This document shows positions 4,441 to 9,585 of a DNA stretch of 25,674 nucleotides, in pieces; the stretch's first letter is position 1; each line of letters begins with the position of its first letter. The notes beneath the pieces are model-generated. The model had not been told where the DNA came from, did no database searches, and was given only the letters and a program-made list of their open reading frames with translations. A program made the translations under genes and the position numbers. Source of the stretch: a virus. The DNA lies in IMG/VR virus record IMGVR_UViG_3300047470_000054, positions 1-25,674 of that record; one strand, 5' to 3'.

Positions 4441-4797
4441 ATGAACACCTTTGCCGGTCGTCAGACCGAGAACAAGACAGCGCGGCGACTGCTCTCCTTC
4501 ATTGAGGAGTTCGGTAAGCTCGACGCTGAAATGCAAATCCAACAGATCGCCATCTTCCTCCACGTCATGGGGAAGCCCGAGCTGACGATGCGGGAGCTGG
4601 AGCAGGCAACCGGCCTCAGCTCGTCGTCAATCAGCCGGAACGTATCGGCCCTGTCCAAGACGCACCGCAAGGGGCAGCCTGGGCACGACCTCATCACCAC
4701 CTTTGAGGACGCCATGGATCGCCGCATCAAGCGTGTCAGACCGACACCGAAGGGCACCAAGGTCTTCAACACACTCATCAGCATTCTGGGGAGCTAA
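4441..4797 (+). CDS. MarR-like winged-helix regulator
   Basis: 118 aa; ATG 4441 after GTGAGGG. An N-terminal helical stretch is followed by an HTH (MRELEQATGLSSSSISRNVS, residues ~44-63) and a wing with a C-terminal PTPKGTKVF element, typical of MarR-family DNA-binding domains. It ends 4 nt before the integrase start, so the two genes are probably co-translated. It may regulate int or act as an excision/lysogeny switch; inference from position. Confidence 0.75.
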   Translation: MNTFAGRQTENKTARRLLSFIEEFGKLDAEMQIQQIAIFLHVMGKPELTMRELEQATGLSSSSISRNVSALSKTHRKGQPGHDLITTFEDAMDRRIKRVRPTPKGTKVFNTLISILGS

Positions 4798-4801
4798 TCA
4801 C

Positions 4802-5836
4802 ATGGCAGTCAGTCCGCGCGGAAGTGGCTATCAGGCAGAGTTCGTCATCAAGGGCGAGCGCTATCGCAAGCAGTTCGAGACGCACGATCTGGCTGTCAAG
4901 TGGGAGCTGGAAACCCGCACGGCCCTCAAGCTGGGCAAGCCCCTGCCTGATGCGCCTGAGCAACAGATCGGTGGGGCAGATGCAGGCTCCATTGGCAACG
5001 CCCTGCGCGCCGCGAAGGAGAAGCGTTGGGCCTACCAGCGCGGATCGACGCGGGCCGTCCTCAATGCCGAGAAGTTCGTCGAGTGGGTCGGTGCCAAGAC
5101 GCCGGCCAAGGCAGCCCTGAGCGAGGACAAAATCCACGAGTTCGTGCGCCACCTCAAGAACGACCGCAAGGTCACCGGCTCGACGATCAATCGCTACCTG
5201 TCGTCGATCTCGGTCCTGATCAAGTTCGCCCGCGTCGAGCGGCCAGAGCTGAAGTATCAGGAGAAGGGTCCGAGCCGGCTCCGCTACTTCACCGAGGAGG
5301 AGGTCGCGCTTGTCATCCAGACCCTCACGCTGTGGGGCAAGCTTGCCGAGCGGGACCTGTTCATCTTCCTGATCGACACCGGCGCTCGTCCGTACTCGGA
5401 AGGCACCTCGTCGCGCTGGTCTCAATTCCGCGACCGCACGGTCACCTTCGGGGAGCTTCAGCTCACCAAGACGGGCAAGGCCAGGACGATCCCGCTGACC
5501 ACTCGGGCGCTCGAAGCTGTCGCTCGCCAGAAGGCTCTCAAGGGCAACCACGAGGGACCATGGACCGACATCACCGAGTGGCAGATGATCGAGCTGTGGC
5601 GCAACGTCCGTGGCCACCTCCCGCAGCTCAGCGACACCGTGGTCTACACCTGTCGGCACACCTGTGCGTCGTGGCAAGTGCAGCGCGGCGTCGACCTCCT
5701 GCGCGTCAAGGAATGGATGGGGCATAACTCCTACCAGACCACGCTGGGATACGCTCACCTCGCGCCGAAGCACCTCATGGACAACCTCGCTGTCCTCGAA
5801 GGTGGCGCTGGTCCGAACCTTCGGATCGTGAGTTAG
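4802..5836 (+). CDS. int: Tyrosine recombinase (phage integrase)
   Basis: 344 aa; ATG 4802 with GGGGAG upstream. Short N-terminal arm-binding-like region (residues 1-50), core-binding SAM-like domain (~60-150), catalytic domain after ~160. Catalytic set: Arg196 (DTGARPYSE), Lys223 (LTKTGKA), YTCR282-285, His308 (WMGH), nucleophile Tyr317 (LGYAHL). The usual H of H-x-x-R is Tyr282, a variation to note. It catalyses site-specific integration and excision. The attP lies directly downstream. Position upstream of the RNA polymerase matches temperate T7-like phages of cyanobacteria and SAR11. Confidence 0.93.
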   Translation: MAVSPRGSGYQAEFVIKGERYRKQFETHDLAVKWELETRTALKLGKPLPDAPEQQIGGADAGSIGNALRAAKEKRWAYQRGSTRAVLNAEKFVEWVGAKTPAKAALSEDKIHEFVRHLKNDRKVTGSTINRYLSSISVLIKFARVERPELKYQEKGPSRLRYFTEEEVALVIQTLTLWGKLAERDLFIFLIDTGARPYSEGTSSRWSQFRDRTVTFGELQLTKTGKARTIPLTTRALEAVARQKALKGNHEGPWTDITEWQMIELWRNVRGHLPQLSDTVVYTCRHTCASWQVQRGVDLLRVKEWMGHNSYQTTLGYAHLAPKHLMDNLAVLEGGAGPNLRIVS

Positions 5837-5923
5837 AGGCACCTCGGGGTCGCGCCCTGAGCGACGAGTGAAATCGTGACAGGCGGGGAGAGACCCGCAC
5901 AAGATTTGACTGCATCCCCACCA

Positions 5924-5990
5924 TGTGGGACACCGACGAACCGCGTGGGGAATGTGTGGGAAATCTCCCACGTTTCTCCCTCATGTGGGA
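5924..5990 (+). repeat. Left integrase arm-site cluster (TGTGGGA repeats)
   Basis: TGTGGGA occurs at 5924-5930, 5955-5963 (TGTGGGAAA) and 5984-5990, with an inverted copy TCTCCCACG at 5964-5972 and a degenerate GTGGGG at 5945-5950. They lie just downstream of int and upstream of the tRNA-like core. The same heptamer recurs three times on the other side of the core. This is the layout of arm-type binding sites of a tyrosine integrase. Confidence 0.65.
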
Positions 5991-6002
5991 GGCGAAAGCC
6001 CA

Positions 6003-6041
6003 GCGGACGTGGTGGAAATGGCAGACACAAGGGACTTAAAA
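6003..6041 (+). other. attP core: 5' half of tRNA-Leu(UAA)
   Basis: The 39 nt starting GCGGACGTGG at 6003 read as a leucine tRNA from base 1 into the anticodon loop: 7-nt acceptor strand, TG, D-arm (GTGG ... GGCAGACAC), anticodon 5' stem AGGGA and loop CTTAAAA with anticodon TAA. After 6041 the tRNA pairing is lost; no T-arm or 3' acceptor follows. A second copy of the stem complement, TCCCTTG, appears at 6053-6059 and mirrors CAAGGGA (6028-6034). A tRNA fragment directly after int is the hallmark of an attachment site. Integration would rebuild a full tRNA-Leu with the host 3' half. Confidence 0.8.
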
Positions 6042-6094
6042 ACCACTGCAATTCCCTTGCACCCACGCAACGAACCCCTCAACGCCTTATAATT

Positions 6095-6115
6095 CCCCGG
6101 TCTGCGCCGGGGTTT
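6095..6115 (+). terminator. GC-rich terminator-like hairpin
   Basis: CCCCGG (6095-6100) and CCGGGG (6107-6112) flank a 6-nt loop and are followed by TTT. It sits between the attP core and the right arm sites. It could end the int transcript, or be derived from a host tRNA terminator picked up with the core. The T-run is short. Confidence 0.5.
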
Positions 6116-6134
6116 GGCATTTCAAAACCAATCG

Positions 6135-6151
6135 CTCCACTAACGCAACGG
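6135..6151 (+). promoter_or_regulatory. CTCCACTA motif upstream of the antirepressor gene
   Basis: CTCCACTAACGCAACGG at 6135-6151 shares CTCCACTAnCnCnACG with the copies at 9629 and 20635. It lies 66 nt before the start at 6217 and inside the attP region. Candidate phage-polymerase promoter; no host sigma70 pair was found close by. Confidence 0.4.
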
Positions 6152-6155
6152 ATTG

Positions 6156-6193
6156 TGTGGGAAACACGCCGTTGTGGGAATTTCTGTGGGGAA
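6156..6193 (+). repeat. Right integrase arm-site cluster (TGTGGGA repeats)
   Basis: Three direct copies: TGTGGGAAA (6156-6164), TGTGGGAA (6173-6180) and TGTGGGGAA (6185-6193), spaced 12-17 nt apart. They match the left cluster at 5924-5990 and complete a P-core-P' arrangement. The last copy ends 24 nt before the next gene start, so integrase binding could interfere with that gene's transcription. Confidence 0.6.
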
Positions 6194-6216
6194 GCACCCA
6201 CCAAAGGAGAACAAAC

Positions 6217-6906
6217 GTGAACGCACTCTCGACCTTCAACTTCAACACCTCGGCCATCCGCGTGGTGACCATCGACGGCAACCCGTGGTTCGTGGCGTCG
6301 GACGTGTGTCGCGTCCTGGGCTTCAAGAACCCCACCGTCTCTCTCAAAGCGCTCGATGCCGATGAGAGGGCTAAGACAGACTTAGGCCCCATCGCTCCGA
6401 CAGCGAACATCATCTCCGAGAGCGGCCTCTACAAACTGGTCATGCGGTCGGACAAGCCGCAGGCCAAACCGTTCCAAGACTGGGTCGCCAAGATCGTCCT
6501 GCCGGCCATCCGCAAGGACGGCGGCTACATCTTCGGCCAGGAGAACATGACGAGCGACGAGTTCGTCCGCGCCGCCAAGAAGTTCGCAGGGCGTAAGCCG
6601 CGCACCGTGGCCGCTGAGGGCACCCTCTGGTACTGCCTTCAGGACCTGATCCCGCCGTCGCTCCTGAAAGACTACAGCCGGGGAGCCTGCTGGACCCGCG
6701 CCTTCGTCCGCACAAACGCCCCCGAGGGTAGCGTGTCAAAGAGGCGCATGACGAACGCCGCAGGCTATCCGTCGCCCACGATAGTCGTGTCTGCAGACGC
6801 GCTGCCGACCGTCCTGACCTACATCACGGGGAAGATGAAAGGCATCGACTTCAGGGCCTCGTGGGCGAAGCTCCCCGAGCCGCTCCAGATGTCGGTCGCT
6901 GCCTGA
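6217..6906 (+). CDS. BRO-N domain antirepressor-like protein
   Basis: 229 aa from GTG 6217, chosen because AAAGGAGAACAAAC precedes it; an upstream ATG at 6157 would run through the arm sites. Residues ~5-100 (IRVVTIDGNPWFVASDVCRV ... SLKALDADER ... VLPAIRKDGGY) are a BRO-N/antirepressor DNA-binding domain. The C-terminal half (EGTLWYCLQDLIPPSLLKDY ... VLTYITGKMKG) is a separate unrecognised domain. In other phages such proteins switch prophages to lytic growth or bind DNA. Its position between attP and the polymerase suits a lysogeny/lysis switch; the target is unknown. Confidence 0.8.
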   Translation: MNALSTFNFNTSAIRVVTIDGNPWFVASDVCRVLGFKNPTVSLKALDADERAKTDLGPIAPTANIISESGLYKLVMRSDKPQAKPFQDWVAKIVLPAIRKDGGYIFGQENMTSDEFVRAAKKFAGRKPRTVAAEGTLWYCLQDLIPPSLLKDYSRGACWTRAFVRTNAPEGSVSKRRMTNAAGYPSPTIVVSADALPTVLTYITGKMKGIDFRASWAKLPEPLQMSVAA

Positions 6907-7190
6907 TGCCTCAGAACCGAATTGGCCTGCACGTCTTGTCCGAGGCGTGTGGCTACTCCTACGCCGAGCTGAAGCTGGCCTTTCACAAGATCATGATGAA
7001 CACGCCCGACGCCGGTCAGGTCGCGATGGACCTCGCCGTCCACATGTCGCGCACCGAGCCAGACGTTTGGCACCTGAGGAGAATTGTTGATGCAGCACGA
7101 CCACCTACTCCAGCGGCAGATCGAGCTGGAGATCGAGATGTCGGGCCTCGGGCGAGATCGCTACCTCACCCGCGTCCGCAAGAACGTTGA
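6906..7190 (+). CDS. Hypothetical protein, 94 aa, overlaps RNA polymerase start
   Basis: ATG 6906 shares a base with the preceding TGA. The first ~60 residues look protein-like (NRIGLHVLSEACGYSYAELK, a helical region), whereas the tail after residue 60 overlaps the polymerase start by about 100 nt and is Arg/Pro-rich like an out-of-frame read. No family recognised. The GAGGAG ribosome site of the polymerase lies within this gene, so the two are translationally coupled. Confidence 0.6.
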   Translation: MPQNRIGLHVLSEACGYSYAELKLAFHKIMMNTPDAGQVAMDLAVHMSRTEPDVWHLRRIVDAARPPTPAADRAGDRDVGPRARSLPHPRPQER

Positions 7191-9585
7191 CAAGGAGCGC
7201 GGCTATGAGACGGATACGGGGCGCTCGATCCTCGAAAGCGTGGTCGGTCCCGTCTCAGCGGGGATCACCCGATTTATCGAAGAGGTGTACTCGGGTCGTC
7301 CTGGGCCGCGCGCCACCGCCGCGAAGCTGATCAAGGACATGGACTACGACGTGGTCTCCTATCTCGCCTGCAGGGCCATCCTCGGGCGCATGATGAAGCC
7401 ACGCTCGCCGGTCCTCCTCACGCTGGCCGTGGCGGTTGCCCGTGCGGTCGAGCTGGAGGCGCGCTTCACCGAGTTCCGCAACAAGGACAAGGATCGGTTC
7501 GACTACGAGCTGCGCAAGCTGTCCGACGACGGTGCGACAGAACAGCACAAGGCTGTGGTCCTCACCTTCGCCATGAGTAAGCACGGCATCCCGTGGGACC
7601 GCTGGAGCCGCGTCGAAATGATGCACCTCGGGATCAAGCTGATCGAGCTGTTCTGCGAGAACACCGGCCTTGCCATGATCCAGGCAGCCCACGAGGGTGG
7701 CGACAAGAATGCCCCCAAGGACCAGTACCTCGTCCACCTCACCGACCGCGCCATGGCGTGGATCGACCAGTCCCTCCGTGGTGGCGAGCATCTGTTCCCC
7801 GACTTCCTGCCGACGCTGATCCCGCCGAAGGATTGGACGGGCATGTCGGGTGGCGGCTATTACACCGAGCTGGATCGGCCCCTGCCGCTGGTCCGTAGGG
7901 CCAACAAGAAGCAGTTCGAGCTGCTGAAGCGGAAGCTGGCCGAGGCGCAGCACAAGTCTGCCCTGCTGAAGAACGTCAACGCCATCCAGCGGACGCCTTG
8001 GCAGATCAACCAGCCCATCCTCGACGTGATGGCCCAACTGGCTAAGTCCAAGGAAGGCATCGCCGGCCTCGTGCCCGGTGACAGCCCCAAGCCGGCAAGA
8101 CCCGAGGGTGTCCCCGAAGACGCCAAGATCATCGACCTTCCGCCGCACCTCCAGCTCGCGTTCAGGGAATGGAAGTGGGCAGCCCGAGACGTCTACTCGC
8201 TCAACCTCCAGCTCCGTCAGGACAGGCTCCATCAGGAGACCCTGCTAGGGCTCGCTGAGCGGTTCCGTGGCGAGCGGGCGATCTACTTCCCCCACAACCT
8301 CGACTTCCGTGGCCGCGCCTATCCGGTGCCGCTGGTCCTGCACCCGCAGGGCAGTGACCCGGTGAAGGCCTTGCTGCGGTTTGCTGAGGGGAAGCCCCTT
8401 GGGCACGGCGGGGAGCGCTGGCTGGCCATCCATGGGGCGAACACGTTCGGGGTCGACAAGGTCTCGTTCGACGAGCGCGTGGCCTGGGTGGCTGACAACG
8501 CCTGGAACATCGTGCAGTGCGCAATGGACCCGTTCGAGAACCGTTGGTGGACCGAGGCTGACAAGCCGTGGTGCTTCCTCGCGTTCTGCTTCGAGTTCCA
8601 CCGTGCCCAGTGTGAGGGTGAGGACTTCGTCTCGCACCTTCCCATCGCCCTCGACGGCTCCTGCAATGGGCTCCAGCACTTCTCTGCCATGCTCCTCGAC
8701 AGTGTCGGCGGGCGGGCGGTGAACCTGATCCCGGCGCTGAAGCCGCAGGACATCTATCAGGTGGTCGCTGACCGTGTGATGGAACAACTGCGTCAAATCG
8801 TCTCCACTGAAGGGACGATTGCAGAAAGGGGACGATGGGCTCACGAATGGCTCACCATGGGGATCGACCGCAAGGTCACCAAGCGCCCGGTCATGGTGCT
8901 GCCCTACGGCGGGACGCCACGGTCGTGCCTGAAGTATGTCGACGAGGCGGTGAAGGCCAAAATCGCGGCAGGCTACAAGCACAACCTGGGCGACGAGCTG
9001 AAGAAGGCCATCGGGTTCCTCGCCAGCATCATCTGGGACAGCATCGGGGACGTGGTCATCGCCGCAAGGGAGGCCATGGGGTGGCTTCAAAAGACGGCCA
9101 GGGCGATGGGGAAGGACAACCTCCCAATCCACTGGACGACGCCCTCTGGCTTCGTGGCCTATCAAAGCTACGTCGACTTCAGCACCCGGCAGATCAGGAC
9201 CCGCATCGCCGGCAAGATGGTCAAGCCTCGCATCTATGAGGAGACTGACCAGATCAACGCCGGCAAGCAGGCCACGTCGATCAGCCCGAACTACGTTCAC
9301 TCCATGGACGCCTCGGCGCTGTTCCTCACGGTCGGGGAGCTGGTCGATCAGGGCATCACAGACTTCGCCATGATCCACGACAGCTATGGCACCCACGCCT
9401 GCAACACGACCAAGTTAGCCACGACCCTACGGGCAGTCTTCGTCCGCATGTATCAAGCCGATCCTCTCGCGGCGTTCCGTGACGAGGTCATTCAATCCAA
9501 TCCCGGCATCGAGCTGGAAGAGCTGCCAAGCAAGGGAGACCTCGACCTCAACCAAATTCTCAAGTCCGACTTCTTCTTCGCCTAG
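7090..9585 (+). CDS. T7-type single-subunit DNA-dependent RNA polymerase
   Basis: 831 aa; ATG 7090 is 8 nt after GAGGAG, with TTG codons at 7084 and 7087 as alternatives. Motifs match T7 gp1: motif A DGSCNGLQHFSAM with Asp522, motif B VTKRPVMVLPYGG with Lys598 and Tyr606, motif C HDSYGTHA with Asp764, and the C-terminus DFFFA corresponding to T7 FAFA. Slightly shorter than T7 (883). It transcribes phage middle and late genes from phage-specific promoters. Its own expression must come from host polymerase or read-through. Confidence 0.97.
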   Translation: MQHDHLLQRQIELEIEMSGLGRDRYLTRVRKNVDKERGYETDTGRSILESVVGPVSAGITRFIEEVYSGRPGPRATAAKLIKDMDYDVVSYLACRAILGRMMKPRSPVLLTLAVAVARAVELEARFTEFRNKDKDRFDYELRKLSDDGATEQHKAVVLTFAMSKHGIPWDRWSRVEMMHLGIKLIELFCENTGLAMIQAAHEGGDKNAPKDQYLVHLTDRAMAWIDQSLRGGEHLFPDFLPTLIPPKDWTGMSGGGYYTELDRPLPLVRRANKKQFELLKRKLAEAQHKSALLKNVNAIQRTPWQINQPILDVMAQLAKSKEGIAGLVPGDSPKPARPEGVPEDAKIIDLPPHLQLAFREWKWAARDVYSLNLQLRQDRLHQETLLGLAERFRGERAIYFPHNLDFRGRAYPVPLVLHPQGSDPVKALLRFAEGKPLGHGGERWLAIHGANTFGVDKVSFDERVAWVADNAWNIVQCAMDPFENRWWTEADKPWCFLAFCFEFHRAQCEGEDFVSHLPIALDGSCNGLQHFSAMLLDSVGGRAVNLIPALKPQDIYQVVADRVMEQLRQIVSTEGTIAERGRWAHEWLTMGIDRKVTKRPVMVLPYGGTPRSCLKYVDEAVKAKIAAGYKHNLGDELKKAIGFLASIIWDSIGDVVIAAREAMGWLQKTARAMGKDNLPIHWTTPSGFVAYQSYVDFSTRQIRTRIAGKMVKPRIYEETDQINAGKQATSISPNYVHSMDASALFLTVGELVDQGITDFAMIHDSYGTHACNTTKLATTLRAVFVRMYQADPLAAFRDEVIQSNPGIELEELPSKGDLDLNQILKSDFFFA

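Follow-up and report, generated by a model that had tools for sequence, protein, structure and literature searches.

A probable attP built on the 5' half of tRNA-Leu(UAA) beside the integrase gene of a T7-like phage

Organization of the region between the integrase and RNA polymerase genes

The stretch of DNA analyzed here (the window) comprises 25,674 nt, positions 1 to 25,674 of the IMG/VR record IMGVR_UViG_3300047470_000054, and the phage genome is known as this 25.7-kb fragment. The region 5924–6193 is placed between a tyrosine integrase gene, int (4802..5836, plus strand; Pfam Phage_integrase, E 2.1e-11), and genes for a BRO protein and a T7-like RNA polymerase (RNAP). The candidate catalytic residues of the integrase (R198, K225, R287, H310, and Y319) are invariant in the seven integrases compared. 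Just 5' of int is an ORF for a MarR/winged-helix regulator of 118 aa (4441..4797, plus strand; Pfam MarR_2, E 2.7e-7). On the other side, the BRO-N domain gene (6217..6906, plus strand; Pfam Bro-N, E 3.5e-24) occupies the interval preceding the RNAP gene (7084..9585, plus strand; Pfam RNA_pol, E 1.1e-111). The BRO-N gene is antirepressor-like, and L002 and L001, two of the closest relatives, carry other ORFs in the corresponding interval. The arrangement, with int directly upstream and RNAP downstream, is that of the 5'-half attP of the P-SSP7 type. No complete tRNA was found in the 25.7-kb fragment by ARAGORN or with Rfam.

The core of the region starts 169 nt past int and runs in the same direction. 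Its 39 nt at 6003..6041 (plus strand), GCGGACGTGGTGGAAATGGCAGACACAAGGGACTTAAAA, consist of the acceptor 5' strand, the D arm, the anticodon 5' strand (AGGGA), and the anticodon loop (CTTAAAA) of tRNA-Leu(UAA). The sequence-only reading had seen tRNA-Leu from base 1 to the anticodon loop, followed by loss of pairing, and this was borne out: 3' of the core the anticodon-stem 3' strand fails, as ACCAC gives two of the five pairs. Past 6041 there is no T-arm or acceptor 3' strand, so that the feature of a canonical 3'-half attP is missing. Tyrosine recombinases exchange strands across a 7-bp overlap, and the anticodon loop (6035..6041, plus strand), which is common to the phage and host halves in integrated relatives, is the probable overlap region. 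The same 39 nt are present in the same place in three other IMG/VR contigs. Together with the window, these contigs share an unbroken identical run of 66 nt (5982–6047), and their flanks differ by 10–15%.

Exact TGTGGGA repeats lie on the plus strand to the left of the core at 5924..5930, 5955..5961 (conserved in four phages), and 5984..5990 (conserved), and to the right at 6156..6162 and 6173..6179 (both conserved). Sequence reading adds an imperfect inverted copy, TCCCAC (5966..5971, minus strand), and a right imperfect repeat, TGTGGGG (6185..6191, plus strand). The earlier count of at least three copies plus an inverted one on the left and three on the right was thus correct for the left direct copies, while the right side has two exact copies and the third, like the inverted one, is imperfect. 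Five of the six TGTGGGA sites of the window, counting both strands, fall inside 5906–6200 (295 nt; Poisson P about 7e-10). The repeats are probably arm sites of the integrase: they are conserved and flank the core on both sides, the arrangement expected of a heterobivalent (lambda-like) attP. Alternatively, they could be operators for the MarR-like regulator, whose gene lies upstream of int, or for another DNA-binding protein. We regard this as unlikely, since the repeats stand on both sides of the core in the fashion of arm sites and the equivalent places in other family members are occupied by different repeats (GTGACA, GTGGGAAAAT).

Between the core and the RNAP gene, a laxer scan found a terminator-like hairpin with a weak T tail, CCCCGGTCTGCGCCGGGG (6095..6112, plus strand), which a stricter tool did not call as a terminator. 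Its stem, like the arm repeats, is conserved in the three related contigs. A hairpin of this kind follows the core at 9 of 26 loci and is thus not universal; in phage LUZ100, the mapped terminator T4 is located at the position corresponding to the window hairpin.

The interval between int and the attP region also holds, outside attP, a structured RNA motif of three hairpins (5838..5902, plus strand), identified by covariation in 13 sequences. In these sequences 98.6% of cells are paired, with 25 double-change cells versus 0–3 in slid controls. The motif also occurs at L011:5039-5104 and L006:278-343 and in L013, L014, L267, and L268–L275, and is absent from the closest relatives L001–L003. It lies 3' of int in the window, 5' of tRNA-Cys in Rhizobium phage B1VFA, and in other phages often immediately 5' of small ORFs. 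Neither the motif nor the attP region matched any Rfam family, even at E 5, and the three-hairpin model R1 had zero matches among 397 Hyphomicrobiales genomes. The motif is possibly a new RNA family of phage 5' UTRs. A short conserved ORF for a membrane-like peptide of ~37 aa, found between int and attP in L011 (about 5115-5240) and in the matching place in L001, is absent from the window.

Predicted exchange at the anticodon loop of a host tRNA-Leu(UAA) gene

An exact copy of the 39-mer was found in none of 84,980 species genomes. The sequence-only reading had proposed to look for the core in bacterial tRNA-Leu(UAA) genes and had named a match over about 35 nt. The nearest host tRNAs, tRNA-Leu(UAA) of Hyphomicrobiales, match at 37 of the 39 positions with both differences in the D loop, and the usual Mesorhizobium tRNA-Leu(UAA) matches at 35; the uninterrupted identity adjoining the crossover is 14–19 nt. 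Two of the four differences from the Mesorhizobium 5' half, at positions 11 and 24, form a compensatory pair (C-G to U-A). The host of the phage is most likely a member of Hyphomicrobiales, Mesorhizobium or near kin. In an attL assembled in silico from the phage 5' half and the 3' half of the Mesorhizobium gene, ARAGORN called tRNA-Leu(taa); neither attP nor attR was read as a tRNA.

We consider it highly probable that a temperate, T7-like Hyphomicrobiales phage has its attP at 5924–6193 and that exchange at the anticodon loop of tRNA-Leu(UAA) would rebuild the host tRNA from the phage 5' half. This agrees with the original proposal of an attP with a tRNA-Leu(UAA) 5' half beside int, now supported by the conservation of the core, the valid tRNA obtained when the halves are joined in silico, and a relative (see below) whose integrated copy ends at precisely the anticodon loop of tRNA-Leu(UAA). 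From these observations and the sequence itself we infer recombination by the window phage, binding at the arm sites, and the source of transcription. The integrase would recombine CTTAAAA of attP with the identical 7-bp loop in the host tRNA-Leu(UAA) gene. At attL, the phage 5' half and the host 3' half would then form a complete tRNA-Leu(UAA) directly downstream of int and in its orientation. The host promoter, at attR, would be left with only the host 5' half, running into phage DNA, the terminator-like hairpin, and then the BRO and RNAP genes.

As the phage supplies the 5' part, the rebuilt gene would lose the host promoter, and the earlier statement that it would lie downstream of int, severed from that promoter, follows from the geometry of the site. 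Because the host promoter would remain at attR with a 5' half alone, transcription of the rebuilt tRNA would have to start in phage DNA; probably the tRNA would form the 3' end of a marR-int transcript or be read from an unrecognized promoter, and an essential host tRNA would thereby be tied to the prophage. A sigma70-like match, TTGTTA-16-TATAAT, ends 18 nt before the half in P-SSP7, whereas no sigma70 promoter was found 5' of the half in the window; dependence of the rebuilt tRNA on phage transcription is a plausible reading.

Integrated relatives and footprints in Mesorhizobium genomes

A relative whose integrase is 89% identical to that of the window, IMGVR_UViG_2791355132 (L011, G001), is a prophage in the genome of a Mesorhizobium isolate. 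The permutation point of its genome falls exactly between int and the RNAP gene. The order at its left end is int, the arms, a complete tRNA-Leu(UAA), a short core (AAGGGACTTAAAA), and the host tRNA-Leu(UAA) 3' half; the contig stops short of attR, so that the junction is seen at this end. The host 3' half at the edge is identical to that of 43 Mesorhizobium loci, and the host flank beyond it corresponds to M. jarvisii sequence adjoining an intact tRNA. The complete tRNA of its own and the short core indicate that L011 opens the tRNA-Leu(UAA) gene at the anticodon loop predicted for the window phage but does not rebuild it. The search for prophages ending at the core thus succeeded for this relative, bounded at the anticodon loop, but the attL expected of the window phage was present in none of the 397 Hyphomicrobiales genomes.

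Another Hyphomicrobiales genome (G022) contains a more distantly related element (integrase about 38%) in which both ends are visible: the host 5' half lies at 594102 and the host 3' half at 579588, and the element encloses a complete tRNA-Leu(UAA). Genes resembling those of type I restriction-modification and a gene resembling DUF262 were named by inspection in this 14.5-kb element (G022:C1:579588-594102; L163, L164), which follows the same tRNA-Leu(UAA) strategy and is a possible defence island using this type of integrase.

A core too short to rebuild the tRNA, as in tRNA-dependent lysogeny, is found in L011, G022, and others; the window core is not of this kind, and no complete cognate tRNA is encoded in the 25.7-kb fragment. 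One could still suppose that the window phage has a complete tRNA-Leu elsewhere in its genome and follows tRNA-dependent lysogeny, with the 5' half serving merely as sequence for the integrase. The sister phage L011 behaves in this way, and the tRNA is remote from the core in LUZ100, RHEph01, and L191. We nevertheless judge this quite improbable, given that the fragment contains no tRNA and that the half is invariant along all 39 nt in four phages and rebuilds a tRNA, which would be needless for a phage with a short core.

Footprints of such elements were found in Mesorhizobium genomes. In Mesorhizobium sp. WSM3862 (G004), a complete tRNA-Leu(UAA) of the element type and TGTGGGA arms are followed by the displaced host 3' half, with chromosomal genes around and the phage absent. 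No homologue of 16 window proteins was found in 58 kb at this site, the scar being adjoined only by chromosomal genes, and pattern searches detected no other tRNA-Leu(UAA) in WSM3862. A foreign tRNA-Leu(UAA) beside a displaced host 3' half occurs in 7 of 146 Mesorhizobium genomes, and searches of all seven, which are draft assemblies, found no intact native tRNA-Leu(UAA). The arms at the seven loci are TGTGGGA or GTGACA, a difference pointing to different elements behind the seven cases. Some Mesorhizobium thus seem, from their genome sequences, to live on a viral tRNA-Leu(UAA) alone. At the locus L280, a MarR-like gene almost abuts the arms, and int is absent. In the Mesorhizobium genomes G455, G453, G536, G444, and G403, the 3' part of tRNA-Leu(UAA) is present in two or three copies 0.5–16 kb apart, as if the site were a hot spot for repeated integration by other elements.

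These genomes also bear on whether the site could serve integration without stable lysogeny. Site-specific integration of this kind has been reported for two T7-like cyanophages of the Autographiviridae, P-SSP7 and S-TIP37, for which PCR showed integration into tRNA-Leu and no stable lysogens were found (PMC8776855), and a lysogen of the exact window phage was likewise not found among the 397 Hyphomicrobiales genomes. However, the genome of an isolate contains the nearest relative as an integrated prophage, and element tRNAs stand in place of the native tRNA in Mesorhizobium genomes; we therefore think it unlikely that stable lysogeny is lacking here.

tRNA-Leu genes beside related integrases and known systems

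We surveyed the relatives of the integrase in IMG/VR and in isolated phages. Wherever an isotype was assigned to a tRNA beside int, it was Leu (anticodon UAA, UAG, or CAA). Among 28 loci with a complete tRNA-Leu, which include near-duplicates (e.g., L209–L211 and L194/L195), 27 have a second copy of the tRNA's own anticodon-loop heptamer, and this second copy usually occurs once per locus, 3' of int. LUZ100, RHEph01, Lo5R7ANS, and YIMV22061, all isolated phages, obey this rule. The matching core suggests that the tRNA-Leu genes are working parts that keep the host alive once its tRNA gene is cut. Ten of the 19 complete tRNAs on the sense strand start at most 70 nt from the int stop codon, a spacing that suggests co-transcription with int. 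In Mesorhizobium phage Lo5R7ANS, the annotation places a gene for a BglII-like restriction enzyme and one for an adenine methyltransferase between int and tRNA-Leu(UAG) (L005:7233-8502).

Under a stricter limit on the region after int, 26 of 28 loci contained the tRNA's own loop, whereas other Leu loops scored 10 of 112 (Fisher 6e-18) and the reversed loop 2 of 28. On these counts we rejected the view that the tRNA-Leu genes beside int are excision relics, an explanation proposed for that of LUZ100 (PMC10134795). The tRNA is on the opposite strand in LUZ100, RHEph01, and YIMV22061, which this idea does not fit.

The window group, P-SSP7, L216/L217/L221, and L233 have tRNA-Leu 5' halves instead of whole tRNAs. 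L198 has a tRNA-Arg(UCU) 5' half 53 nt past int, and L226 possibly a tRNA-Cys 5' half 411 nt past int. The half in the window might be a dead relic of imprecise excision, for such relics do occur and an integrated copy of the window type was not found in the 397 Hyphomicrobiales genomes. However, the half is perfectly conserved in four phages despite the divergence of their flanks by 10–15%, independent occurrences of this half are found in P-SSP7, L198, L216, and L233, and loci with a complete tRNA retain the matching anticodon core even when the tRNA is distant or on the other strand. A relic is accordingly the explanation to which we give hardly any weight. In the integrase tree, the window clade (100/99) consists of three half-type members and one whole-type member, and L169, of the half type, is sister to L170, of the whole type (100/100). 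The starred branches force at least four half/whole switches, in a tree that has long branches and unsure deep placements.

T7-like phages have long been considered strictly lytic. Taking the evidence together, we think it likely, with somewhat less confidence than for the attP itself, that tRNA-Leu beside int of T7-like phages and related elements is a part of lysogeny: either a 5' half would rebuild the host tRNA, or the host tRNA would be broken and a whole cognate supplied, with lineages switching from one mode to the other at an unchanged target. Lysogens would depend on tRNA-Leu transcribed from the phage, and in several Mesorhizobium species the element would have decayed to leave its tRNA-Leu(UAA) as the sole copy. 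On this reading, tRNA-dependent lysogeny reaches beyond actinophages to the Autographiviridae that infect Proteobacteria, and the near-identical pair L169/L170 offers a system for studying conversion between the half and whole modes. It also suggests that viral genes can take the place of core translation genes in soil bacteria. In the literature consulted, we found no description of the anticodon-matched core across T7-like phages, of the half/whole switch at one target within near-identical phages, or of an element tRNA that is apparently the sole tRNA-Leu(UAA) in several Mesorhizobium genomes. Host tRNA substitution has been noted in S. meliloti (PMC11476347).

The attP of the window itself belongs to a known type, as P-SSP7 integration and tRNA-dependent lysogeny are already published. 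The comparable tRNA-Leu fragment by int in P-SSP7, mentioned in the sequence-only reading, is indeed the same half in the same orientation and place. P-SSP7 and S-TIP37 share with the window the order MarR-int-attP-RNAP, and P-SSP7 further shares the tRNA-Leu(UAA) 5' half directly after int and a terminator-like hairpin past the core; it differs in that its half is preceded by a sigma70-like promoter and in lacking TGTGGGA arms. The same layout with tRNA-Thr occurs in CRP-810, a roseophage of another family (PMC11288001). The canonical attP with a 3' half of a tRNA, e.g., that of mycobacteriophage Omega (PMC10865867), resembles the present one in the anticodon-loop crossover and the restoration of the tRNA at the junction but has the opposite polarity, as the window phage gives the 5' part. 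In the tRNA-dependent lysogeny of actinophages, Fionnbharth and others (Guerrero-Bustamante and Hatfull 2024, PMC10865867), the integrase likewise attacks a host tRNA gene, and close relatives likewise switch modes: of Cain and Ximenita, one rebuilds the tRNA and one brings a whole tRNA (PMC10865867), as do L169 and L170 here. The window phage differs from tRNA-dependent lysogeny in rebuilding the tRNA from a 5' half, and its whole-tRNA relatives differ from the actinophages in being T7-like phages of Proteobacteria that carry tRNA-Leu, mostly after int and before the core.
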